The notes under the pieces are model-generated. The model saw nothing but the letters and a program-made list of their open reading frames with translations. It had not been told where the DNA came from and did no database searches. From Acidimicrobiaceae bacterium (GTDB taxonomy: Bacteria > Actinomycetota > Acidimicrobiia > Acidimicrobiales > Ilumatobacteraceae), in assembly GCA_003569125.1 (NCBI GenBank), contig BGOG01000002.1:62001-126000 (forward strand): a stretch of DNA of 64,000 nt, read 5' to 3'. The translations under genes were made by a program, and so were the position numbers. Within the stretch, counting starts at the first letter, position 1; the number at the start of each line of letters is the position of its first letter. Shown here in pieces: positions 4,035-27,310 of the stretch.

Positions 4035-5490
4035 TTATTTCGCCCAGTTCATCGAGCGCTTAACGGCTGTCTGCCAAGTTTCATACCCACTTGGTTTTGT
4101 TGCCGGAGAAAAAGTTTTTTCAAGTTGCCATGCATCTGAGATATCTTGCGTAGATTGCCAAACGCCCTTCGCTAGCCCTGCAAGATAAGCCGCACCAATT
4201 GCGGTCGTCTCTAATTCTTTTGGGCGCAATACATCGACGCCCAAATGATCGGCTTGCAACTGCAACATAAAATCAATCACCGAGGCACCGCCGTCAACTT
4301 TTAATTCGGATACGGCGACCCCGGACGCCTTAGTCATCGCTTCGACAACGTCTCTTGTTTGAAAAACGATCGACTCAATTGTGGCGCGAGCAATATGGGC
4401 GCGCGAGGTGCCTCGGGTGATGCCGAAAATCGCACCGCGGGCATATGCATCCCACCACGGGCTACCAAGACCCGTAAACGCGGGCACGACCACCACACCA
4501 CCCGAATCTTCGACGCTTTGTGCCAGTGCCGTAATTTCATTTGCATTGTCGATGATGTTTAAGCCGTCGCGGAGCCATTGAATTGCTGCGCCCGTCACGA
4601 ATATCGCGCCTTCAAGTGCATAGGTTGGTCGGTCGCTGCCAAGTTGCCAGGCGATTGTTGTCAGCATTCCGTCAGTTGGTTGAGGGCAGGGTCGTGCCGA
4701 CATTCATCAGCACGAAACTTCCCGTGCCGTATGTGTTCTTGGTACTACCCGCATCAAAACATGCCTGGCCAAATAGTGCCGCGTGTTGGTCACCGGCGAC
4801 ACCGCTGATTGAGATGCCCGCAGGTACCGAACCATGTTGAACGGTGACACCGAAATCACTGCTGGATGCACGAACTTCGGGCAAAAACTTTGGTTGCACG
4901 CCCAGCAGTTTGGTTAATTCTTCGCTCCAACATAATTCAGTGATGTCAAACAACATTGTTCTGCTGGCATTTGTGCAGTCAGTGACAAAAGATTTTGAGC
5001 CAGTCAAGTTCCAGATCAGCCAAGAGTCGATCGTTCCGATACATAGATCGTCGTCTTGGCGAATTTCACGATTTGCCAAAAGCCATTCGATTTTGGTTCC
5101 TGAAAAATAAGGGTCGAGAACCAAACCAGTTTGTTGTCGCACCAATGGCAGATACTCGGCGAGTTCAACGCATCGATCGGCGGTACGGCGGTCTTGCCAA
5201 ACTATTGCATTGCCGTATGGCTCACCAGTTTGTTTGTTCCAGGCAACGATCGTTTCACGCTGATTCGTGATTCCGATTGCGGTGATCGTTTGTGTTATCT
5301 GCTGGGCGACTTCTTGCAGTGTCGCCAATACCGCCTGCCAAATTTCTAGCGCATCATGTTCGACCCACCCAGGTTGTGGAAAGTGTTGTGTAAATTCGCG
5401 ATACGACGAAATTGATTTCGAGCCGTCGGCAAATACCGCACGAGATCGCACACCGGTTGTTCCTGCATCAATGGCGATGACGACAGTCAT
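4035..5490 (-). CDS. glpK: Glycerol kinase (two ORFs joined by a frameshift near 4690)
   Basis: VIAIDAGTTGVRSRAVFADG, TNQRETIVAWNKQTGEPYGNAIVWQDRRTA, VVPAFTGLGSPWWDAYARGAIFGITRGT. Confidence 0.92.
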
Positions 5491-5533
5491 GGTGTTAAAC
5501 GTTACAAAAAATTTGCCGGGTGCCCAATGGCAT

Positions 5534-6322
5534 CTAGTTGCCTTCGCACACCAAAACGCTCAAGGCTTCAAAAATTTTGGGACAAGCAATCATGATCTCG
5601 GCGGGGCTAGAAACGCCGCCATGAAAATTGCCGCTGCGCGCACCAGCCTCGATTGCGATTAGTTCCGCCGCGGCAATATCCCAAGAATGCAGATTCTCCT
5701 CGAAATACGCGTCGACTCTGCCACAGGCAACGAAACATATATCCACACTCGCGGCCCCGAGTCGACGGATATCGCGAACTTGATGAATAAAAGTCGAGAC
5801 ACGCTTCGATTGAACGGTCCGATGTTCGGGCAAGTAGCTAAAGCCCGTGCAGACCAACGCCTTCGAGATATCGGTCAACTCGTTGCATCGAATTCGCTCG
5901 CCATTCAAAAAAGCCCCACCGCCGCGAGTCGCCGAAAATACTTCGTCTAGCGCCGGTATATATACGACACCGACGAGTGGTCCGTGTTCGTCGCTAACGC
6001 CAATCGACACGCTCCAACTCGGCAATGCATACAGAAAATTAGTCGTGCCATCAATCGGGTCGATGCACCATGTGTAGTTGCTGCTGCCAGAATGCGAGCC
6101 ACCCTCTTCGCCGATAATCGAGTCGTCAGGTCGGCGAGTGCGAATTTCATTGACGATGTACTTTTCAGTGGCTTTATCGAATTCGGTCACCATGTCGGTA
6201 CTGGTTGTTTTCGTTTGAACATCCTTCAAGCCGGCGCGACGGCCAGCAAATGCTCGCTTACCCCCGGTCACCGCAAGTTCGGTGCAGATCTCAAGAAGCG
6301 TCGTGGCTAACGATTCGCTCAC
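5534..6322 (-). CDS. Inositol monophosphatase family protein
   Basis: GEEGG, WCIDPIDGTTNFLYALPSWSVSIG, SWDIAAAELIAIEAG. Confidence 0.9.
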   Translation of the reverse strand: MSESLATTLLEICTELAVTGGKRAFAGRRAGLKDVQTKTTSTDMVTEFDKATEKYIVNEIRTRRPDDSIIGEEGGSHSGSSNYTWCIDPIDGTTNFLYALPSWSVSIGVSDEHGPLVGVVYIPALDEVFSATRGGGAFLNGERIRCNELTDISKALVCTGFSYLPEHRTVQSKRVSTFIHQVRDIRRLGAASVDICFVACGRVDAYFEENLHSWDIAAAELIAIEAGARSGNFHGGVSSPAEIMIACPKIFEALSVLVCEGN

Positions 6323-6594
6323 GTGTGACCGTCAAGTTCTCGCCATTCACCGACGGCTCGCAGCACCAGCACGACGACAACACTCATTCCTGCTGCACTG
6401 ATCACCGCTCCAGAAACGAGGCCAATCGAGTTCGGAACATCGCACGAGCCTTGACATTGAAGATCTACTAGTGAAAATCCGATCAACGCTCCGGCAAAAC
6501 CCGCAACCATGATTCCGATAAATGCGATTACTCGTGCGCCAACAGAAGGCAGCGCCGATAGCGCGCGAGCATTACTGTTCTGCTTGCTATTCAT
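6319..6594 (-). CDS. Small hypothetical membrane protein
   Basis: 91-aa ORF, two hydrophobic segments, overlaps IMPase start by 4 nt. Confidence 0.5.
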   Translation of the reverse strand: MNSKQNSNARALSALPSVGARVIAFIGIMVAGFAGALIGFSLVDLQCQGSCDVPNSIGLVSGAVISAAGMSVVVVLVLRAVGEWRELDGHT

Positions 6595-6650
6595 CTATAT
6601 GAGCGTAGGTTCGCCAACTCAAGTTGCGTTGCATGGCTAGCGTTTGATTC

Positions 6651-7934
6651 GTGGGTGCCCGCCAAAGTTCTGATTTCAAAACGATATTACATGTGGATAT
6701 GGACATGTTTTATGTCGCAGTTGAATTACGCCGCAATCCGCATCTTGTCGGCAAGCCGGTAGTGGTCGGCGGTGATGGTTCGCGCGGTGTGGTTGCGGCT
6801 GCGTCTTATGAAGCCCGCAGATTTGGAGTTTTTTCGGCGATGTCATCGTCACAGGCGAAACGACTTTGCCCGCAGGCAATCTTCTTGCCCGGCGACCACG
6901 ACCATTATTCAGATGTCAGCGCCGATGTATTTCAAGTTTTCAACGAGTTCACACCATTGGTTGAAGGTCTCTCGCTTGACGAAGCGTTTCTTGATGTTTC
7001 TGGTTCGTTGCGGCTTTTTGGTTCTGGTTCGACGATCGCCCATGAAGTAAGGCGTCGGGTCGCCGAGGCAACGCAACTAACTTGCAGTGTTGGCATTGCG
7101 CCAAATAAGTTTCTCGCGAAATTAGCATCTGTCGTTGCCAAGCCAAAAGCGTCACGACAAGGAGTCGTCGCTGGGCATGGTGTCTATGAAGTCGTGCCGA
7201 CTCGCGAACTCGAGTTTCTGCATCCACTCGATGTTGACGCGCTTTGGGGTGTCGGGCCCGTCACGCTCAAAAAACTTCATGGTCTCGGGATCAAAACAGT
7301 CGGAGATCTCGCAGCCTTCGACTTAACGGTATTGGTCGCGGTGCTCGGCGATTCGCAAGGGCGTCATCTCGCCACGCTCGCACAAGGTGTCGACAATCGC
7401 GACGTCGAACCTGACCGGGATGCCAAATCAATCGGACACGAAGAAACTTTTTCGAGCGACATCACCGAATATGAAAACGCACATGATCATCTGGTGCGAC
7501 TTGCCGATTCTGTGGCTACAAGATGTCGCAATTCTGGCGTTGGCGCACGAACGATTTCGCTGAAAATCAAATATGCAGATTTTCAGTTGGTGACAAGATC
7601 TACCAGCGTCGAGATGCCGGTCTCAACGGCGCCGGCGATGGTTCGATTGCTTGAGCCACTTTTACGAAGTATTGACTTGAAAGCGGGTGTTCGGTTGCTG
7701 GGTGTTAGCGCGAGAAATCTTGTCGCCCCAGAACAGCAAATGAGTTTGTTCGACACGTTTATCGGTGATGATTCTGCCAATACTTTAGATGAGGCATGGA
7801 GCACAACCACTTCGGCAATTGACGAGATTCGTGATCGGTTTGGTGATTCGGCGATAAAGTCTGCGAGCACACTCGGCCAGGAACGTGACCCAAGCTCCTC
7901 AAAGTGGGGGCCTAGCGACCCTAAATCTCGATAA
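6651..7934 (+). CDS. dinB: DNA polymerase IV (Y-family)
   Basis: HVDMDMFYVAVELRRNPHLVGKPVVVGG, SLDEAFLDVSGS, SVGIAPNKFLAKLAS. Confidence 0.95.
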   Translation: MGARQSSDFKTILHVDMDMFYVAVELRRNPHLVGKPVVVGGDGSRGVVAAASYEARRFGVFSAMSSSQAKRLCPQAIFLPGDHDHYSDVSADVFQVFNEFTPLVEGLSLDEAFLDVSGSLRLFGSGSTIAHEVRRRVAEATQLTCSVGIAPNKFLAKLASVVAKPKASRQGVVAGHGVYEVVPTRELEFLHPLDVDALWGVGPVTLKKLHGLGIKTVGDLAAFDLTVLVAVLGDSQGRHLATLAQGVDNRDVEPDRDAKSIGHEETFSSDITEYENAHDHLVRLADSVATRCRNSGVGARTISLKIKYADFQLVTRSTSVEMPVSTAPAMVRLLEPLLRSIDLKAGVRLLGVSARNLVAPEQQMSLFDTFIGDDSANTLDEAWSTTTSAIDEIRDRFGDSAIKSASTLGQERDPSSSKWGPSDPKSR

Positions 7935-8001
7935 ACCTCACCTACAATCGCAATAGCAAGACGGGATATTGCTAAATTGTAAAATAATCACAGGAGGTCA
8001 T

Positions 8002-8355
8002 GTGCCGTTATCCGACAACGAAAAACAAATCCTTGCACAAATCGAGCACGATCTTAAAGCCGACGAAAAATTCGCGCAGGCTGTTTCTTCGAAAGGTCTG
8101 TATCGACATTCGGCACGAACCGCATGGTGGGCAGGTATCGGCGTTGTTGCTTCATTGGTTCTGACAATTCTCGGTTTGCGAGTTCACTTCGCGCTGGCAT
8201 TTGTCGGGTTTCTGGGGATGCTTGCGTGTGCATTAATTGTTGAGCGCCAGTTGCGCGCGATGTCAAAAGCGGGTCTGCGTGATGTCACTGAGTCGTTGCG
8301 CGCTTCTCGCGCGAACGCCCAACGAATGCGCGAAAAATTTACGCGCGATCGATAA
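8002..8355 (+). CDS. DUF3040 family membrane protein
   Basis: VPLSDNEKQILAQIEHDLKADEKFA start after aggaggt; two hydrophobic segments. Confidence 0.8.
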   Translation: MPLSDNEKQILAQIEHDLKADEKFAQAVSSKGLYRHSARTAWWAGIGVVASLVLTILGLRVHFALAFVGFLGMLACALIVERQLRAMSKAGLRDVTESLRASRANAQRMREKFTRDR

Positions 8356-8367
8356 AGATAAAACAGC

Positions 8368-9228
8368 GTGTCAGCGCGCGGCTATTTTGCAGTTGATATT
8401 GGTGGTACGAAGCTTTCAGTCGGAGTTGTTTCTTTAACAGGCGAAGTTCTATCGCACGGTCGCGCCGCTACGCCACAGACCAATGTCTGGCAGGCACTGA
8501 GCGAACTTATCGAAGCACAACTTGCACTGACCGATGTCGAGCTTGTGAGTTGTGGGGTCGGATGCGGCGGACCGATGTCTCCAGGTGGCGAATTTGTTTC
8601 GACCCTGCATATTCCAGAATGGCGCGATTTTCCGTTGCGTGCGAAATTGCAAGCTCTCATGCATCTGCCCGTTTATATTGACAATGACGCAAAAGCTCTG
8701 GTGCAAGGCGAAGTTTGGTGCGGGGCTGTCGCCGGTCAAACCGATGTGATTGGCATGGTCGTATCGACTGGCGTTGGTGGAGGAATCATCTCTGGCGGAA
8801 AAATCCTCAACGGCCGTATTGGCAATGCTGGCCATATCGGCCATGTAATTGTTGAACCCAACGGGCGATTATGTGCGTGCGGCTCACATGGGTGTCTTGA
8901 GGCGCATGCCTCTGGGCGATCGATCGAAGCGATCACGGGTAAGCCAGCCGCCGAGGCGAGTCTTGAAGTGATTCAAAATACTGGTCGCCTTGTAGCGCGT
9001 GCTTTGACGAGCGTCGGCGCGATAATCGATTTACGCAGCGCGGTAATCGCCGGCTCGGTCGCACTCGGTTTTGGTGACCCATTTTTTGACACCGTGCAGA
9101 ACGAGTTAGATCGCAATGCCAAGATCGAGTTTATTCGTGACTTCACCGTCTGCAGGGCTGGACTCGGGCAATTGTCGCCGCTCGTTGGGGCGGCAGCGGT
9201 AGCCCGCAATCTAGGATGTAATTCATGA
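8368..9228 (+). CDS. ROK family sugar kinase/regulator
   Basis: VDIGGTKLSVGVV, IDNDAKALVQGE, STGVGGGII, CACGSHGCLE. Confidence 0.85.
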   Translation: MSARGYFAVDIGGTKLSVGVVSLTGEVLSHGRAATPQTNVWQALSELIEAQLALTDVELVSCGVGCGGPMSPGGEFVSTLHIPEWRDFPLRAKLQALMHLPVYIDNDAKALVQGEVWCGAVAGQTDVIGMVVSTGVGGGIISGGKILNGRIGNAGHIGHVIVEPNGRLCACGSHGCLEAHASGRSIEAITGKPAAEASLEVIQNTGRLVARALTSVGAIIDLRSAVIAGSVALGFGDPFFDTVQNELDRNAKIEFIRDFTVCRAGLGQLSPLVGAAAVARNLGCNS

Positions 9229-10445
9229 AACCCGTCTATGAGCCTCAGGCTGAAGAATATCGCGAGAAGGTCCAAGCATTTTTGGCGGAGAAACTTCCTG
9301 CAACTTGGAAGGGCATCGGTTCGCTAGAGGGCAAAGCGGTAGAAGATTTTATGAAACAGTGGCGACAGACGCTTGCGTCGAGTCCTTATCTTGCGCCAGG
9401 TTGGCCAGTTGAATACGGCGGTGGTGGACTCTCGGCTCTTGAGCAAGTGATCGTCGCCGAAGAATTTGCACATGCTGGTGTACCAACAGGTTCGTTCAAT
9501 GACACTTTTGGTATTCAAATGCTCGGTAACACTTTGTTGATTTGGGGCACCGAAGAGCAAAAACGATATTACTTGCCACGAATTATTTCGGGTCAAGATA
9601 CTTGGTGTCAGGGATACAGCGAACCGAACGCTGGTTCAGATCTTGGCAACGTCGGTCTCAAGGCGACACTTGATGGTGATCAATTTATTTTGAACGGACA
9701 AAAAATTTGGACTTCAGCCGGTCAATATGCAACCCACATTTTTACCCTCGCTCGCACAAACCCCGATGCGCCAAAACACAAGGGCATCTCGTTTCTGTTG
9801 GTTGACATGCGTCAGCCAGGAATTGAAATTCGACCGATCAAGATGATCTCGGGCGAGAGCGAGTTCAACGAAGTGTTCTACACCGATGCGGCGTGTCCGA
9901 AAGAAAATGTGGTTGGTGGACTGAACAATGGTTGGGCAGTTGCGATGTCACTTCTTGGCTATGAGCGCGGTGAGGCGGCAGCAACATTGTCAATTCGCTT
10001 TCAAGCAGAATTCGATCGACTTCTTGCTCTGGCCCATCAACGTGGCGTTGCCAGTGACCCGAGAATTCGTCAGCGCTTGAGCGACTGCTACGGCCGAGTT
10101 CAAATCATGAAGTATCTCGGTCTGCGCACCTTGACAAAATTTGTTGCTGGTCATCACCCCGGCCCAGACGGGGCGATTTCGAAGTTGTATTGGAGCGAGT
10201 ATCACAAGATTGTCACCGAACTTGCGATGGATATTCTCGGCGCTGACGGACTTGTGCCGGTCGGACGTAAACCCATTTCGTCGTTTCAGACTGACGATGG
10301 TGGTGCCGAAAACAGTTCGATGAGTTGGGCGATGACTTTCTTGAATGCGCGAGCGGGCACAATTTATGCTGGTTCATCACAGGTTCAGCGCAATATCATC
10401 GGCGAGATGGTGCTCGGATTGCCCAAAGAGCCAAAACCCAACTAA
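9225..10445 (+). CDS. Acyl-CoA dehydrogenase
   Basis: YSEPNAGSDLGNVGLKA, NGQKIWTSAGQYA, AGTIYAGSSQVQRNIIGEMVLGLP. Confidence 0.92.
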   Translation: MKPVYEPQAEEYREKVQAFLAEKLPATWKGIGSLEGKAVEDFMKQWRQTLASSPYLAPGWPVEYGGGGLSALEQVIVAEEFAHAGVPTGSFNDTFGIQMLGNTLLIWGTEEQKRYYLPRIISGQDTWCQGYSEPNAGSDLGNVGLKATLDGDQFILNGQKIWTSAGQYATHIFTLARTNPDAPKHKGISFLLVDMRQPGIEIRPIKMISGESEFNEVFYTDAACPKENVVGGLNNGWAVAMSLLGYERGEAAATLSIRFQAEFDRLLALAHQRGVASDPRIRQRLSDCYGRVQIMKYLGLRTLTKFVAGHHPGPDGAISKLYWSEYHKIVTELAMDILGADGLVPVGRKPISSFQTDDGGAENSSMSWAMTFLNARAGTIYAGSSQVQRNIIGEMVLGLPKEPKPN

Positions 10446-18784: not shown

Positions 18785-20149
18785 ATGACCACGACGCTTG
18801 TCTACGGGTTAGCGATCGCGGGTCGGGCAGTGGCCAAAGAACTTGTTGCACGCGGTCAATCTGTTGTTCTTGCCGATGACTCAATCAATGAGTCGGCGAT
18901 TGCTGCACACAACCAATTCGCCAAAGAACTCGGCTCTCGATTTGTCGGCAGTCCAAATGCGCAACGACTGCGAGAAATCATCGATCAAGTGGATCTGGTT
19001 TCGCCTGCACCAGGAGTACCCGAGAATCATCAAGTAATAGAAATTTCGAAAAATCAAAATAAAATAATTGCCTCAGAAATCGAACTGGCGTATCAATTCG
19101 AACAACTTGCAGCGAGTCCACGACCGATGGTCGCAGTCACGGGAACAGACGGCAAGACGACGACAACTTTGATGGCCGCGGCAATTTTGAAGTCAGCGGG
19201 ATTGCGCGCATTGGCCGTCGGCAATACTGAACTTCCTCTGATTGCTTCGTTGAGCAGTGATGCTCAGGCATTCGCCATTGAATGCTCGAGTTTCAGGTTG
19301 ATGTACACGAAAAAATTTCGTGCCAAGGCATCAGTTTGGCTCAATCTTGCGCCCGATCATTTGGATTGGCATTCGTCGTTCAAATCTTATAAATCTGCCA
19401 AGGCCCAAATGTGGGCACATCTTCATAGTGATGACGTCGCTGTGGTGCCACACGGCGACGAAATAATCGGTGAGATTGCCAAGCAAAGTGGCGCCCGTGT
19501 CGTCAGTTTCGGTTCAGAAGCGGGCGACTATCACCTAAACAACGGAATCTTGAATTCACCAACTGGACGAATAATAAATGTCGCCGAGATGCGCCGCAGT
19601 TTGCCACACGACATTACGAATGCGCTAGCTGCAGCGGCGATAACGATCGAGTCCGGTCTCGCCACCAAGAACGATGTCGCTATTGCGCTCGCCGAATTTA
19701 TAAATGCACCGCATCGAATCGAGTTGGTGGCGACATCGCGCGGGGTTTCGTGGTACGACGATTCGAAAGCTACGAGCCCGCATGCATCCAATGTTGCGTT
19801 GAGATCTTTCGAATCGATCGTGCTGATTGCTGGCGGAAAAAATAAAGGTCTCGATTTGAATGAGATGGCATGTCAGCCCAACAGAATGCGGGCTGTGGTC
19901 GCGATCGGTGCCGCGCAAAAAGAAATCGAGAGCGCATTTTCAAAAGTCTGTGAGGTTCGTACTGCAAATTCAATGCATGAAGCCGTTGCAGCAGCGAACA
20001 CTTTGGCGCAATCAGGTGATGTTGTTCTGCTTTCACCGGGCTGCACAAGTTACGACTGGTATGCCAACTATGGGCAGCGAGGCGAAGATTTCACTCGAGA
20101 AGTAAAAGCTTTGTTAGCCACTGCCGTGGCATCCGAGGCGAACAAATGA
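18785..20149 (+). CDS. murD: UDP-MurNAc-L-alanine:D-glutamate ligase MurD
   Basis: VTGTDGKTTTTLMAAAIL, LNLAPDHLDWHSSF, YDDSKATSPHASNVAL, LLSPGCTSYDWYANYGQRGEDF. Confidence 0.93.
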   Translation: MTTTLVYGLAIAGRAVAKELVARGQSVVLADDSINESAIAAHNQFAKELGSRFVGSPNAQRLREIIDQVDLVSPAPGVPENHQVIEISKNQNKIIASEIELAYQFEQLAASPRPMVAVTGTDGKTTTTLMAAAILKSAGLRALAVGNTELPLIASLSSDAQAFAIECSSFRLMYTKKFRAKASVWLNLAPDHLDWHSSFKSYKSAKAQMWAHLHSDDVAVVPHGDEIIGEIAKQSGARVVSFGSEAGDYHLNNGILNSPTGRIINVAEMRRSLPHDITNALAAAAITIESGLATKNDVAIALAEFINAPHRIELVATSRGVSWYDDSKATSPHASNVALRSFESIVLIAGGKNKGLDLNEMACQPNRMRAVVAIGAAQKEIESAFSKVCEVRTANSMHEAVAAANTLAQSGDVVLLSPGCTSYDWYANYGQRGEDFTREVKALLATAVASEANK

Positions 20150-21343
20150 GCACGATTAACCCTGGTGCGGGTCGCACAGCCACATTGGCCGAGCGTCGTC
20201 GTGATGTGCTCGAAGATCGCGGGATCACTGTTTCTGGTCGCAGTTCTTTGGGCGCTCCCAACGCCACGGTATTTTGGATTTTGATCACCGTTCTCAGTTT
20301 GATCACTTTCGGATTGGTGATGGTTCTGTCGTCTTCTTCAATCGTCGCTCTTAATCGCGGAATGTCGCCGTGGAGAATGTTTTTCAAACAATTGATGTGG
20401 TCAAGCGTCGGAGTTTTAGGAATGTTGCTTTTCTATTTCTTTCCCTATCCGTTGTTACGAAAATTCGTTCTACCAGGATTAATCTTCGCCTTCGGCTTGA
20501 TGGTTCTTCCATTTGCACCCGGCATCGGCGTCAGCACGAACGGTGCTCGTGCGTGGGTTGCCATCGGTCCAGTGGGCTTTCAACCATCAGAGTTTTTGAA
20601 ATTTGCATTGTTGGTTTACTGTGCTCACTTACTAAGCAAACGTCATAAGGACGATGTTGAACTTTCCGAAAAAATGAAACCAATCCTGCGTGTCTGGCTG
20701 ATCTCGGTTGCATTGTGCCTCGTTCAAAAAGACTTGGGCGGCGCAATCATCTTGACCTGCATCGTGTTGACGCTGTTGTTCATGGCCGGCACACCATTTA
20801 CGAGTCGTGTTTCCACTGTCATTGATGTCAATTTTGATCGGCGGTTTGTTTACATTGTCGAGTTCATCCCGACGCAACCGTTGGACGGCGTTCATGAATC
20901 TCGACGAGACAAAAAATGGATACGGGTACCAAGTTTGGCAATCGATTCTGGCGATTTCAAACGGTGGCATTACAGGTACTGGTGCGGGTGCAGGCACCGG
21001 CAAATGGGGCTATGTGCCACTGGCTCACAGCGACTTTATTTTCTCAACCATCGCCGAAGAGTTCGGCTTGATTGGGGTGAGCATCGTCATCGGTGGATTT
21101 CTGATTTTTACACTGTTCGGCTTGCAGGCGAGCAAGCGAGCACCGGATAAATTCGCGGCATTAGTCGCCGGTGGAGTGACAATGTGGTTTGCAATTCAGG
21201 CATGTATCAACATTGGTGGAGTTACTGGCTCAATGCCGGTCACAGGTCTGACTCTTCCACTTATTTCTTATGGGGGAAGCTCATTACTCGTGTGCATGTC
21301 CGCAGCAGGTTTGCTACTCAACGTCGCTCGAAATATGGACTGA
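20146..21343 (+). CDS. ftsW: SEDS glycosyltransferase FtsW (frameshift near 20810)
   Basis: NGARAWVAIGPVGFQPSEFLKFALLVY; second part SDFIFSTIAEEFGLIG and GLTLPLISYGGSSLLVCMSAAGLLLNVAR. Confidence 0.93.
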
Positions 21344-22513
21344 TTGCTCATCGCAGGCAAAATCTTGGATAATTCAAACCAATCAGTTTTTGCGGTTATC
21401 ACCGGCGGTGGCACGAGTGGGCATGTGATTCCTGCGTTGTCAATCGCCGAACTTTTAGTTGATGCAAATATTCCACAAAACCAAATTCATATGGTTGGCA
21501 CGATCAACGGGGTTGAAACAAAACTTGTTCCTCCGACAAGAATTTCACTCACACTGCTAGATGTGCGCGGCTTCAGTAGAAAACTTTCGTTAGGTTCGTT
21601 GAAGACAAATTTGCAGGCACTCGTGATGTTGCGCCGTGCGATCAAGAACGCGGTTGTTTTGTTGGAGAGCTTAAAGCCGGCAGTTGTAATCTCGGTTGGA
21701 GGATACGGCAGCGTTCCTGCCACTCGGGCTGCAGGTCAACTAAAGATTCCAGTTGTAACGGTTTCTTATGATCGCTTGCCTGGTCGCGCAACAAAATTGC
21801 AGGCCCGTGCGGCTGCGGCAACGGCAGTTGCCTATTTGCCGACAAAGTTACCGAATGCAACCCTGACTGGGGCACCAGTGCGACGGTTGATGCGCAATCT
21901 GGATATTGCCGCAACGCGCGATGCAGCCCGAGAACGACTGGGTTTACCGAAAAACCGAAAAGTCGTTGCGGTGACCGGGGGTTCGCTTGGTTCGGCGTTG
22001 CTCAACTCGTTGACTCGTGAACTTGTAGAAAAATATCATCATCGTTCAGATCTTTCGATAATTCATCTGACGGGTGAAAGATATAAAAACTCTGATATTC
22101 CAAAACACGACATGACGAAGAGCGACAATATTTTTTACCTCAGGATGTCGGCGACGGACGCCATGCAAGATATTTATTCGGCGAGCGATCTGGTCGTTTC
22201 GCGTGCTGGTGCGAGCACGATCGCCGAACTGGCAACAGTCGGACGTGCCAGTGTTCTGATTCCGTGGAAGCAAGCCGCGGAGAATCACCAATATTTCAAT
22301 GCCAAGTGGTTGGCCGACTCAGGCGGAGCAATCGTCATAGATGAAGACGCAGTTTCGCAACAACAAATGTGTGATGCCGTGATCGAATTGATCGATGATT
22401 CAGAGAAAATTCTTGAAATGAACCAGTGTGCTCGTGCCGCCGGTGGGGTGAATCGAAACTCGAGGCTGGTACAACTAATTTCAACGGTGATCAACGACAA
22501 CTCGAAATTAAAA
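21344..22513 (+). CDS. murG: UDP-GlcNAc:lipid I transferase MurG (in frame with MurC)
   Basis: VITGGGTSGHVIPALSIAELL, VSVGGYGSVPATRAA, VTGGSLGSALLN, VVSRAGASTIAELATVGRASVLIPWKQAAENHQ. Confidence 0.9.
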
Positions 22514-23932
22514 ATGGTAAATGAGTTCAAACTTGACCGTCGTCGAAAGATTCACGTAGTTGGTGTCGGTGGTCCGGGAATGTCGGCGATAGCCACCGTG
22601 CTTGCCGAGATGGGTCACGAAGTTTCTGGCAGCGATATCCAAGACGGAGAAATAATAGAACGGCTAAGAACAGTCGGCGTAAAGATCAACATCGGGCACA
22701 GCGTCGATGTGGTCAGAAATTGCGATGCTGTTACGGGTTCTCCGGCGATCCCAAAAAGCAACATCGAGTATCAAAGCGCAAAAAATTCAAACATTCTGGT
22801 CTTGTCGCGAGCCGAGATTCTTTCGGCAATATGTAGCCAGGCACGCAGCATCGGTGTCGCCGGAACGCACGGCAAGACCACAACTTCGTCGATGTTGACG
22901 GCCATTTTGATCGAAGCAAAATTGAATCCAAGTTATTTGATCGGCGGCGATGTCAACGATTTTGGGCGTGGAGCATCGTGGACGGGCGGTGAACTATTTG
23001 TCGTTGAGGCTGACGAAAGTGATTCAACACACATACAACTTCCGCTGAGCGGCACGATTTTGACCAATGTCGATATCGATCATCTGGACAATTTTCAGAC
23101 ATTCGATGCGATTCGTGAAAGTTTCAGCGATTTCATCCGCAAGATCGATGGCCCGCGTGTGTTGTGTATTGACGACCCATTTTGTGCCGAGATCGCTCGA
23201 CAGCACGGTGCGACTAGTTATAGCGCATCGACCAATAAACCGGGGTCCACTGAAATTTTAAATGCAGATTTTTTCGCCAATAATGTTCAATTCAATAATG
23301 GATCGGCACAATTTACGGTTTCGCAAAATATCGAAAATCAAACCGTGCGACTGGGTGTCGTCAACATCAAATTACGTGGCATTCACAATGTTCGTAATGC
23401 GCTCGGCGCACTGGTAATGGCTATCGAGTTGGGCGCCAGTTTTGCCCAAGCACAGACAGCACTTGCCAAGTTTGGTGGTGTCGCTCGTCGCTTCGATAAT
23501 CATGGCACGCACGATGGAATTACTTACGTTGACGACTATGCCCATTTACCGAACGAAATTTCGGCGGTGTTGGCCGGTGCGCGAGACCAATCTGATTCGT
23601 GGTCGCGGGTTATTGCAGTGTTTCAACCAAATCGCTTCAATCGAATGTCGGTGATATCTCATCTTTACGCCGATTCTTTCAAGGATGCTGATCTTGTGGT
23701 CGTCACGGATATTTATGCGTCCGGCACGGCTGCAATCGCCGGAGTCACGGGCGAGTTGGTGGTCGACGCGATTCGAACTGCTCATCCAAAACAAAAAGTG
23801 ATTTACCAACCAAAACGCAGTGATCTCATAGAATTTCTAGATAATGAACTCAAGTCTGGTGATCTTTGTATTTCAATGGGATGTGGCGATATTGCCGCAC
23901 TTCCTTCCGAGCTGATTTCACGAAAGTCGTAA
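22514..23932 (+). CDS. murC: UDP-MurNAc-L-alanine ligase MurC
   Basis: RRKIHVVGVGGPGMSAIATVLAEMGHEVSGSD, GVAGTHGKTTTSSML, NVDIDHLDNF, YVDDYAHLPNEI, FQPNRFNR. Confidence 0.93.
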   Translation: MVNEFKLDRRRKIHVVGVGGPGMSAIATVLAEMGHEVSGSDIQDGEIIERLRTVGVKINIGHSVDVVRNCDAVTGSPAIPKSNIEYQSAKNSNILVLSRAEILSAICSQARSIGVAGTHGKTTTSSMLTAILIEAKLNPSYLIGGDVNDFGRGASWTGGELFVVEADESDSTHIQLPLSGTILTNVDIDHLDNFQTFDAIRESFSDFIRKIDGPRVLCIDDPFCAEIARQHGATSYSASTNKPGSTEILNADFFANNVQFNNGSAQFTVSQNIENQTVRLGVVNIKLRGIHNVRNALGALVMAIELGASFAQAQTALAKFGGVARRFDNHGTHDGITYVDDYAHLPNEISAVLAGARDQSDSWSRVIAVFQPNRFNRMSVISHLYADSFKDADLVVVTDIYASGTAAIAGVTGELVVDAIRTAHPKQKVIYQPKRSDLIEFLDNELKSGDLCISMGCGDIAALPSELISRKS

Positions 23933-23938
23933 TATCCC

Positions 23939-26113
23939 GTGATCACTGAAATTACACATGTCAGCGATAAAGATTTATCGCGCATTGCATCGCTACTAGG
24001 AGATCGCATCACCGAAAACGAGCCCCTCGGGCCATACACGACCTACAGAGTTGGTGGTGAAGCTGCGTTGTTCATGAGGGTGATGACGGTCGAAGATTTG
24101 TACTCACTGTCACAAGCGTTGTCCAAAATTAAAGTCCCCGTTGTTGTGGTGGGTCGGGGTAGCAATATGTTGGTCAGTGAGATCGGCTTCCGCGGCATCG
24201 CCGTAACTCTCGGACCTTTCGCTGAGTTGATAAATCTTCCGCCTGTCGGTGAATCTCCAATTTTGATTGCAGGCGCAATGGCTCCGCTTCCTGTTTTGGC
24301 CAGACAGAGCGTGCATCATGGATTGACCGGTCTTGAGTGGGCCGTCGGAGTACCTGGTTCGATCGGCGGCGCGGTGCGAATGAATGCTGGTGGTCATGGT
24401 GCCGACATGATTGCGTCGTTGATCAGCGTTCGAATGTTTCATCTCGAGCGCGGAATCGAAGCGAATGTGTCTGCTGCCGATTTAGGTTTACGATTTCGTG
24501 GATCAGACCTAACCGATGATCATGTCGTTTTGTCTGCAACTTTACGACTGAGTTGGGGCGACACAATCGTTGGACAAGAGAGATTGTCAGAGATCGTAAA
24601 GTGGCGTCGTGAAAATCAACCTGGCGGTCAAAATGCTGGTTCAGTTTTCGTAAATCCAGTGGCAGGTGTGACTTCCGCTGGCGAGCTGATTGACGGGCTC
24701 GGTTTGCGAGGGTATCGAATTCGTACGGCATGCGTCTCTGAAAAACATGCAAATTTCATTCAGGCCGACGAAGACGGAAGCGCAGACGATGTTGTCGAAT
24801 TGATGACATTTATTCGCAAGCGTGTCAGCGAGGCACACGGTATAGACCTGCGGAGCGAAATTCGTTTGGTTGGTTTTCCAACCGCCACCAGTGCTGAAGC
24901 GGGCGCCCCAAGTTTCAAGATAGCAAAATCAATTACACAACTCGATGCCGCATTCGGTGTTGCAACTAGTCCCGACTCGTCGCTACCGGTTCCTGTTGTC
25001 TCTGAAAAACTTTCTGACGATGTTCTCGCAGAGTTGAAAGATGCTTTTGAAGGCAACGCGACCCCGATCAGTATTGTGCGAGTTGTAAAACCCGATGTGC
25101 ATGTCGTTGAATACGAACTTGATGATGATCTTGAACCTGTCGTTAAAGATGCGCCAAGTTTTCTTGATTCTGATATTGCGACGATAACGGGGACGGCAAA
25201 AGAAACTCAGAAAAAAGATACGGCCCCGATCCCGGTTGATGAACCGACGCGAGTCGTGATCATCGACGAAGAATTACGTTTGCCGACCGACATTACATTT
25301 CCGATTGATGCGCTGACCTCTACGGTCAACACTGCACCAACTTCGAGTGCGGTTGTTGTGATTGATGACGAGGAAGCAATTGAAGTGCGCGAGGCGACGC
25401 AAAAGCGCAAATTGCGTAAGAGAACCAGGTACTTGATTGCCGGTTCTTCGATTTTTGCGGTATTTGCGCTGGTGATGATCGTGTTGGCTTCACCGATTAT
25501 CGCCGTTCGTCATGTTGACGTTGAAGGTTCCAAATATATGAGCAAAGATCTATTATCAATCGTGCAGCAATCGTTGCTCGGTAAACCCCTACTGACAGTC
25601 GATACTCGAGAAGCCTCGCGTCGACTCGAAGATGATCCTTGGGTTGAGACCGTGCGAATCAGACAATTTTTTCCGTCTCGGTTGTTGATTGAGATCGCCG
25701 AGCGAGTGCCGGTGGCGTGGTTTATCGGTGTAGACAATCGTGCCCGGATTGTCGACGCACAGGGCCGAGTGCTGGCCGTAGAAGATGGACAGCCAACAGA
25801 ATATTTGCAAATTACTGGTGTCGGCCCGAATCTCGCGCCGGGCAATAGTGCGGGCGCACTTTACAAAGCAGCCGCGCAATTGGCCACAGGATTACCCGAC
25901 GAATTAGAAAAACTCGTGTTAAATGTTGGCACCGGTGGTCCTAACCAATTAGTTATGACGCTTCGATCGGGAACATTGGTCAACTTTGGCGAGCCAGTCG
26001 ATGTGCAGAATAAACTGATCTCGCTGGTGGTGTTGCTTAGGCGTCAAGATTCAAAGCAAATAGTCTCAATTGACCTGAATAACCCTGATATTCCAACTGT
26101 CCAGTCAAAGTAG
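23939..26113 (+). CDS. Apparent MurB-FtsQ fusion: UDP-MurNAc reductase, acidic linker, TM, POTRA/FtsQ domain
   Basis: MurB: YTTYRVGGEAALF, VVGRGSNMLVSE, WAVGVPGSIGGAVRMNAGGHG, QPGGQNAGSVFVNP; FtsQ: YLIAGSSIFAVFALVMIVLASPIIAVRHVDVEGSKYMS, WVETVRIRQFFPSRLLIEIAERVPVAWF. Confidence 0.85.
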   Translation: MITEITHVSDKDLSRIASLLGDRITENEPLGPYTTYRVGGEAALFMRVMTVEDLYSLSQALSKIKVPVVVVGRGSNMLVSEIGFRGIAVTLGPFAELINLPPVGESPILIAGAMAPLPVLARQSVHHGLTGLEWAVGVPGSIGGAVRMNAGGHGADMIASLISVRMFHLERGIEANVSAADLGLRFRGSDLTDDHVVLSATLRLSWGDTIVGQERLSEIVKWRRENQPGGQNAGSVFVNPVAGVTSAGELIDGLGLRGYRIRTACVSEKHANFIQADEDGSADDVVELMTFIRKRVSEAHGIDLRSEIRLVGFPTATSAEAGAPSFKIAKSITQLDAAFGVATSPDSSLPVPVVSEKLSDDVLAELKDAFEGNATPISIVRVVKPDVHVVEYELDDDLEPVVKDAPSFLDSDIATITGTAKETQKKDTAPIPVDEPTRVVIIDEELRLPTDITFPIDALTSTVNTAPTSSAVVVIDDEEAIEVREATQKRKLRKRTRYLIAGSSIFAVFALVMIVLASPIIAVRHVDVEGSKYMSKDLLSIVQQSLLGKPLLTVDTREASRRLEDDPWVETVRIRQFFPSRLLIEIAERVPVAWFIGVDNRARIVDAQGRVLAVEDGQPTEYLQITGVGPNLAPGNSAGALYKAAAQLATGLPDELEKLVLNVGTGGPNQLVMTLRSGTLVNFGEPVDVQNKLISLVVLLRRQDSKQIVSIDLNNPDIPTVQSK

Positions 26114-26192: not shown

Positions 26193-27310
26193 ATGGCCGG
26201 TCAGCCTCAGAATTATCTCGCAATCATCAAGGTTATTGGTGTAGGTGGTGGCGGTGTCAACGCGATTAATCGAATGATCGAATCTGGTATGCGTGGTGTC
26301 GAATTCGTGGCAATCAACACAGACGCTCAGCAACTGCTTTTGAGTGACGCGAACATGAAAATTGATATCGGTCGCGAATTGACGCGAGGTCTAGGCGCTG
26401 GTGCAGACCCAGAAGTTGGTCGTCAAGCCGCAGAACAACATCGTGCCGAAATTCAAGAAGTCATCGCGGGAGCCGACATGGTATTTATTACCGCAGGCGA
26501 AGGGGGCGGAACCGGAACCGGAGCGGCACCGATAGTGGCAGAGATCGCCAAATCTGAAGGCGCTCTCACGGTTGCGATCGTTACTCGTCCGTTCGCTTTC
26601 GAAGGTCGTCGTCGAGCAGTGCAAGCAGATGCCGGAATCGCCGCACTCAAAGAAAAAGTCGACACGCTTGTCGTGATTCCAAATGAAAGGTTGTTGACGA
26701 TCTCAACCGAGAAAACAACTTTGCTTGAAGCATTCAAGCGGGCTGACGATGTGTTGTATCAGGGTGTCTCAGGCATCACCGGTTTGATTACCACACCAGG
26801 TTGATCAACACCGACTTCGCCGACGTAAAGGCCGTTCTCGCAAATGCTGGCACCGCACTCATGGGTACCGGCGCAGCCACTGGCGAGAATCGTGCAACTG
26901 TTGCCGCCAACGCGGCGATCAATTCGCCGATGCTTGAGGCGTCTCTCGAGGGTGCGCGCGGAGTAATCGTCAACATCACCGGTCCTTCGAATGTCGGTTT
27001 GTTCGAAGTTACAAACGCAATGGAGATTCTGCGAAGTGTCGCGCACCAAGATGCCAACATCATTCATGGTCTCGTTATCGATGACGATATCAATGACGAA
27101 GTTCGAGTCACTGTTGTGGCTGCTGGTTTTGATCGAGGCAATGGTTCGTCACAGCGTGCAGCCACTCGCAGTGATGGTCGCAATACAGCAACTTCGGGTA
27201 CGACTCGACCAGATCCGAAGCCTGCTCGTTTGAAAGATTTATTTGGTGGATCTGACCCGTTGCTCAACAATGACGACGACGACGACGATCTTCCATCTTT
27301 TTTAAAGTAA
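26193..27310 (+). CDS. ftsZ: Cell division protein FtsZ (frameshift in T-run near 26802)
   Basis: [31 protein letters not shown]; adding one T restores [17 protein letters not shown]; acidic C-tail [11 protein letters not shown]. Confidence 0.96.

Follow-up and report, generated by a model that had tools for sequence, protein, structure and literature searches.

A predicted MurB-FtsQ fusion protein kept across three genera of Ilumatobacteraceae

The fused gene and its neighbours

The stretch of DNA analyzed here (hereafter, the window) is 64,000 nucleotides long and carries dcw genes in the order mraY, murD, ftsW, murG-murC, murB-ftsQ and ftsZ, the last of which starts at 26193, downstream of murB-ftsQ. 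A single 724-aa open reading frame (Table 1) contains FAD_binding_4 (residues 43-165), MurB_C (214-311), POTRA_1 (523-589) and FtsQ_DivIB_C (600-713), all above the Pfam cut-offs. The initial annotation had read this frame as a MurB-type reductase joined through an acidic linker and one transmembrane helix to a POTRA/FtsQ domain, an arrangement borne out by Pfam, by hydropathy and by the predicted model.

Table 1. Features of the murB-ftsQ gene and of the gene directly upstream, in window positions
Feature	Position	Strand	Residues	Basis or remark
murG-murC fused gene	21344..23932	+	862 aa	6-base gap to the start of murB-ftsQ; halves match NCBIfam murG and murC
Fused murB-ftsQ gene	23939..26113	+	724 aa	GTG start, TAG stop; full-length stop-free relatives
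MurB domain	23939..24877	+	1-313	Pfam, NCBIfam TIGR00179, PDB sequence match, Foldseek, residue invariance
Junction segment	24878..25015	+	314-359	alignment; restricted to fused proteins
xLDxxFG-like motif	24938-24958	+	334-340	inside the junction segment
Motif A, DVLAELKDAFEG	25016..25051	+	360-371	predicted short helix; common to unfused FtsQ tails
Motif B, RVVIIDEELRLP	25250..25285	+	438-449	common to unfused FtsQ tails (genus g2, weaker in g6)
Single transmembrane helix	25433..25498	+	~499-520	hydropathy; predicted helix 477-517
POTRA domain of FtsQ	25505..25705	+	523-589	Pfam PF08478; Foldseek matches to FtsQ
FtsQ/DivIB C-terminal domain	25736..26077	+	600-713	Pfam PF03799; predicted model
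LVGFPTATSAEAGAPSFK				stretch of the fused protein lying at the junction peptides

The N-terminal half belongs to MurB, with FAD_binding_4 and MurB_C over their curated cut-offs; it also matches NCBIfam TIGR00179 at 168.7 bits (cut-off 144.5) and, by sequence, the solved MurB structures 4pyt and 1hsk in the PDB. Residues R187, S235 and E307, which we take to be the catalytic Arg, Ser and Glu of MurB, align with their counterparts in 4pyt and 1hsk and are invariant across 42 fused sequences. In the predicted model this half resembles 4pyt with a Foldseek TM score of 0.90 by target length. It thus shares fold and catalytic residues with MurB of the S. aureus and 4pyt kind, from which it differs in that its C-terminal extension is the linker, the membrane helix and FtsQ.

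The C-terminal half has the features of FtsQ/DivIB: a cytoplasmic tail, one transmembrane helix (directly preceded by the basic stretch RKLRKRTR), POTRA and C-terminal domains, and a position in the dcw cluster ahead of ftsZ. Its predicted model matches 6h9o, 8hhf, 5z2w and 2vh1 at Foldseek E values of ~1e-8 to 1e-10. Like these relatives, it has a single membrane helix with both domains outside; its cytoplasmic end, however, bears a whole enzyme and not a tail alone. Both ends of the model are folded with high confidence, residues 374-480 are disordered, and two helices are predicted in between, a short one at motif A and a long one over 477-517 that includes the membrane span. As in bifunctional Mur fusions, the two partners occupy one unbroken frame that is kept across species, but the second partner here is a non-enzymatic divisome protein and not an enzyme of the precursor pathway. 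NCBIfam includes models for MurC/Ddl and MurE/MurF fusions and none for a Mur enzyme joined to FtsQ; only the separate murB and ftsQ models match this frame.

The dcw cluster of the family contains further fusions. Since fused murG-murC frames of 841-890 codons, with a short junction, recur in same-genus relatives whose locus covers both genes, we take the murG-murC fusion of the window to be genuine. The sister genus g2 (genera other than the window's carry working labels) has a murC-murB single frame of 832-854 codons (loci L123, L124, L141 and L142 among them), a state with a separate single origin on the tree, and in three g2 genomes (G029, G106 and G102; loci L119, L120 and L122) murG, murC and murB together form one frame of 1164-1185 codons. 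In the GC-rich genome G200 (genus g5), locus L118 shows very long stop-to-stop frames at 4470-9257 and 6758-10387, with MurG (380-751) and MurC (752-1205) in one frame, possibly a second origin of that fusion.

Distribution, origin and linker

Across the loci compared, we found 91 fused murB-ftsQ frames, 55 of them distinct in sequence, in three genera of the family: the window's own, g5 and g9. Within the window's genus, the sole MurB_C match and the sole POTRA_1 match share one frame of 659-770 aa in 27 of 29 genomes; in one of the remaining two the contig breaks off within the gene, and the other lacks both matches. No second copy of murB or ftsQ was found in these 29 genomes, which are 57-91% complete. 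Where fused sequences have record titles, their source is a metagenome assembly and not an isolate; the titles name uncultured Actinomycetota, Acidimicrobiaceae or Ilumatobacteraceae, several being labelled acIV or coming from lakes and bays, and most of these records stem from lakes and other surface waters. For acIV in general, cultured freshwater members are on record (PMC8353197).

Outside the three genera, no frame combining FtsQ with MurB was found in any of 138 genomes of the class and 140 of the phylum, in a survey by FtsQ frame length with an added check, resting in part on frame length only. Several candidates were discarded on inspection: G442, G452 and G397 have an FtsQ frame without MurB, and the long FtsQ frames of G128, G137, G044 and G392 are GC-rich overlaps that lie out of frame with murB. 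A frame of 770 in G033 (genus g6) was likewise rejected. In its locus (L125, 3640-5949), murB and ftsQ share a frame but are kept unfused by two stop codons that separate the domains, which shows that the unfused state can come very close to fusion.

In a tree of MurC, MurB and FtsQ from 95 loci, built by a quick method, all 45 fused rows fall on one side of one branch (SH-aLRT 95), so that one change accounts for them; we grade the support for this deep branch, which joins the three fused genera, as moderate, since it comes from this quick tree only. The nearest unfused genera are g3 and g2, and no loss of the fusion is seen in sampled members of the three genera. The fusion thus arose once, before these genera split, most likely when murB lost the stop that separated it from ftsQ, its downstream neighbour in the dcw cluster, and it has since been the sole MurB and sole FtsQ found.

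The linker of the window protein spans ~190 residues (34 D/E and 20 K/R), and linkers in fused proteins range from ~160 to 230 residues. Unfused FtsQ proteins of sister genera have an acidic cytoplasmic tail of ~125-145 residues with conserved short motifs (loci L119-L125, L138 and L141). In alignments, the linkers of fused proteins match these tails and have motif A (VLxELxxAF) in common with them; motif B (R-VI-DD; RVVIVDDDL) is common to the fused linkers, the g2 tails and, more weakly, the g6 tails. MurB and motif A are separated by ~45-60 residues that are restricted to fused proteins and contain a conserved xLDxxFG-like motif of their own; L335 and F339 of this motif are present in at least 90% of 42 fused sequences. 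Judging from these alignments, most of the linker descends from the FtsQ cytoplasmic tail, and the fused-only stretch indicates that the end of MurB was joined to an existing tail with a short conserved connector added. The first description of the linker as acidic and of low complexity holds as to charge; homology to FtsQ tails and the conserved motifs speak against mere low-complexity filler.

The junction between MurB and FtsQ

An assembly artefact was the most immediate concern, as the initial annotation had proposed that one T lost from the TTTT run at 24874-24877 might have joined two separate genes, and had described one-base losses as common in the window. The latter holds for nearby genes. 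ftsW (20146-21343) and ftsZ (26193-27310) are each split here into two overlapping open reading frames; the assembly probably carries one-base errors at both, because in relatives the two genes are unbroken, at ~411 and ~370 codons, respectively. MurB homology, moreover, stops at the suspected spot. The proposed loss itself is refuted by the relatives: all ten compared, drawn from the same genus and two other genera, read through in frame, the codons at the suspected base being GGT/GGC/GGG-TTT/TTC in the window and in all ten, and separate murB and ftsQ genes with an extra T at 24874-24877 were not seen among the relatives examined. Full-length single-protein relatives, proposed at the outset as a check, are present as 55 distinct unbroken sequences in three genera, so an artefact would require the same error in all these separate assemblies. 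The fused sequences also form a single clade on the tree, and the junction is under selection (below). We consider an artefactual junction in this assembly extremely improbable.

The reading frame of the linker is the only open one, its other two forward frames holding 8 and 20 stops, and a stretch of the same length and composition was open in none of 5000 shuffles. For the junction segment, taken from the end of MurB up to motif A, 14 pairwise comparisons of related genomes gave a dN/dS of 0.115 (209 synonymous versus 95 nonsynonymous changes); the corresponding values were 0.14 for the rest of the linker (0.01-0.43 for the linker by pair), 0.06 for MurB and 0.046 for FtsQ. These ratios indicate that the junction is under purifying selection. 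A separate FtsQ start within the linker was considered and rejected: the GTG and TTG candidates are scattered and unconserved, a conserved ATG inside the gene with a ribosome-binding site was not found in the fused relatives examined, and the linker of the window gene contains no ATG at all. Given this selection and the lack of an internal start, the simplest reading is one continuous polypeptide. The fusion is genuine and old, with no sequencing error at the joint; the frame in three genera, the single origin, selection on the junction and the failure to find a separate murB or POTRA/ftsQ copy uphold the fusion as first proposed.

Topology, rival readings and significance

FtsQ has type II membrane topology, the N-terminus being cytoplasmic, which would place MurB in the same compartment as its substrates. 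We favor, with a probability of about 0.82, a long-established genuine fusion gene whose product is a membrane protein with a cytoplasmic MurB tethered by FtsQ. In this single-chain protein, the N-terminal MurB would carry out the reduction of UDP-GlcNAc-enolpyruvate that yields UDP-MurNAc. It would be followed by a flexible acidic linker, for the most part inherited from the cytoplasmic tail of the ancestral FtsQ, and by the one transmembrane helix of FtsQ; on the far side of the membrane, the POTRA and C-terminal domains would work as part of the FtsQ(L)B divisome complex. We infer that the protein is translated as one chain without cleavage, that both halves are active and that it locates to the septum. 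All UDP-MurNAc would then be made within tether reach of the inner membrane, the amount of MurB would equal that of FtsQ, and MurB would gather at the septum whenever FtsQ does.

It could instead be that the gene is fused but yields two working proteins, through linker cleavage or an internal FtsQ start, as a harmless by-product of genome shrinkage within a tightly packed operon. The fused lineages do have small genomes (0.9-2.2 Mb), several neighbouring dcw pairs are fused in the family, as expected if stops are easily lost, and the linker is long and predicted to be disordered. However, the fused relatives show no conserved ATG with a ribosome site inside the gene, a junction peptide that is useless once cleaved is nonetheless conserved under purifying selection, the fusion was never lost in sampled members of three genera, and it was not seen in g34, g35 and g47, other genera of the family with small genomes (mostly ~1.5-2.8 Mb). 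We regard two separate products as unlikely.

The same grade of doubt applies to a dedicated septal supply, by which UDP-MurNAc would be delivered to the divisome apart from the precursor pool for elongation. UDP-MurNAc is soluble and precedes lipid II by several steps, a second MurB that could serve another pool was not found, and MreB is present in every sampled genome of the fused genera, usually with two SEDS proteins (RodA/FtsW-type). FtsQ is a divisome protein, and the grouping of division genes with wall genes has been interpreted as reflecting coordination (“genomic channeling,” Mingorance et al. 2004, as cited in a passage of PMC6736417), yet we find such a reserved supply improbable. 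For the same genomes, the notion of a clade without elongation machinery, in which septal tethering would be natural, was rejected, given MreB and the usual two SEDS proteins. As these are retained, the elongation machinery remains and must draw on the same precursor from the tethered MurB, and the fusion is probably not reserved for the septum alone. Of the proposal that MurB forms the cytoplasmic part of FtsQ at the septal membrane, the topology fits the predicted model, and an exclusively septal role is unlikely; on the best reading, FtsQ anchors the entire MurB supply at the membrane's inner face.

A more tentative extension, doubtful but somewhat less so than the two alternatives above, is that the linker is a docking platform whose LDxxFG, VLxELxxAF and RVVIVDDDL motifs bind further proteins of wall synthesis or division, MurC, MurG or FtsZ for example. 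The fusion would then make covalent a membrane-bound precursor-making complex that had already assembled on FtsQ; two of the three motifs pre-exist in unfused FtsQ tails of sister genera. If so, the MurG-MurC and MurG-MurC-MurB fusions would stabilize this complex by different routes.

Fusions between Mur enzymes have been published. Verrucomicrobium spinosum has a MurB/MurC fusion enzyme (PMC4803751), which resembles the present case in that MurB is fused to a dcw-cluster neighbour in a restricted lineage, and which the murC-murB frame of g2 recalls; its partner, in contrast, is the next soluble enzyme of the pathway and not a membrane division protein. The relevant passages of PMC6420597 and PMC4929429 describe the MurE-MurF fusion of Bordetella pertussis, list MurG/MurC, MurC/Ddl and MraY/MurG as well, and read such fusions as evidence for a multi-enzyme complex. 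These likewise join wall-precursor genes, and MurG/MurC is also found in the window, but all partners named in those passages are precursor-pathway enzymes, none being FtsQ or another non-enzymatic divisome protein. A fusion of a Mur enzyme with FtsQ is apparently unreported: we found none in the open-licence literature, and an earlier report elsewhere is possible.

The question of physical coupling between cytoplasmic wall-precursor enzymes and the division machinery is an old one, debated on the basis of gene order and of transient interactions. The murB-ftsQ fusion would be one such link made covalent, kept over three genera without separate copies of either partner having been found, and it makes the coupling testable. 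It also directs attention to the cytoplasmic tail of actinobacterial FtsQ, so far little studied, as a possible meeting point of the wall-precursor and division systems.
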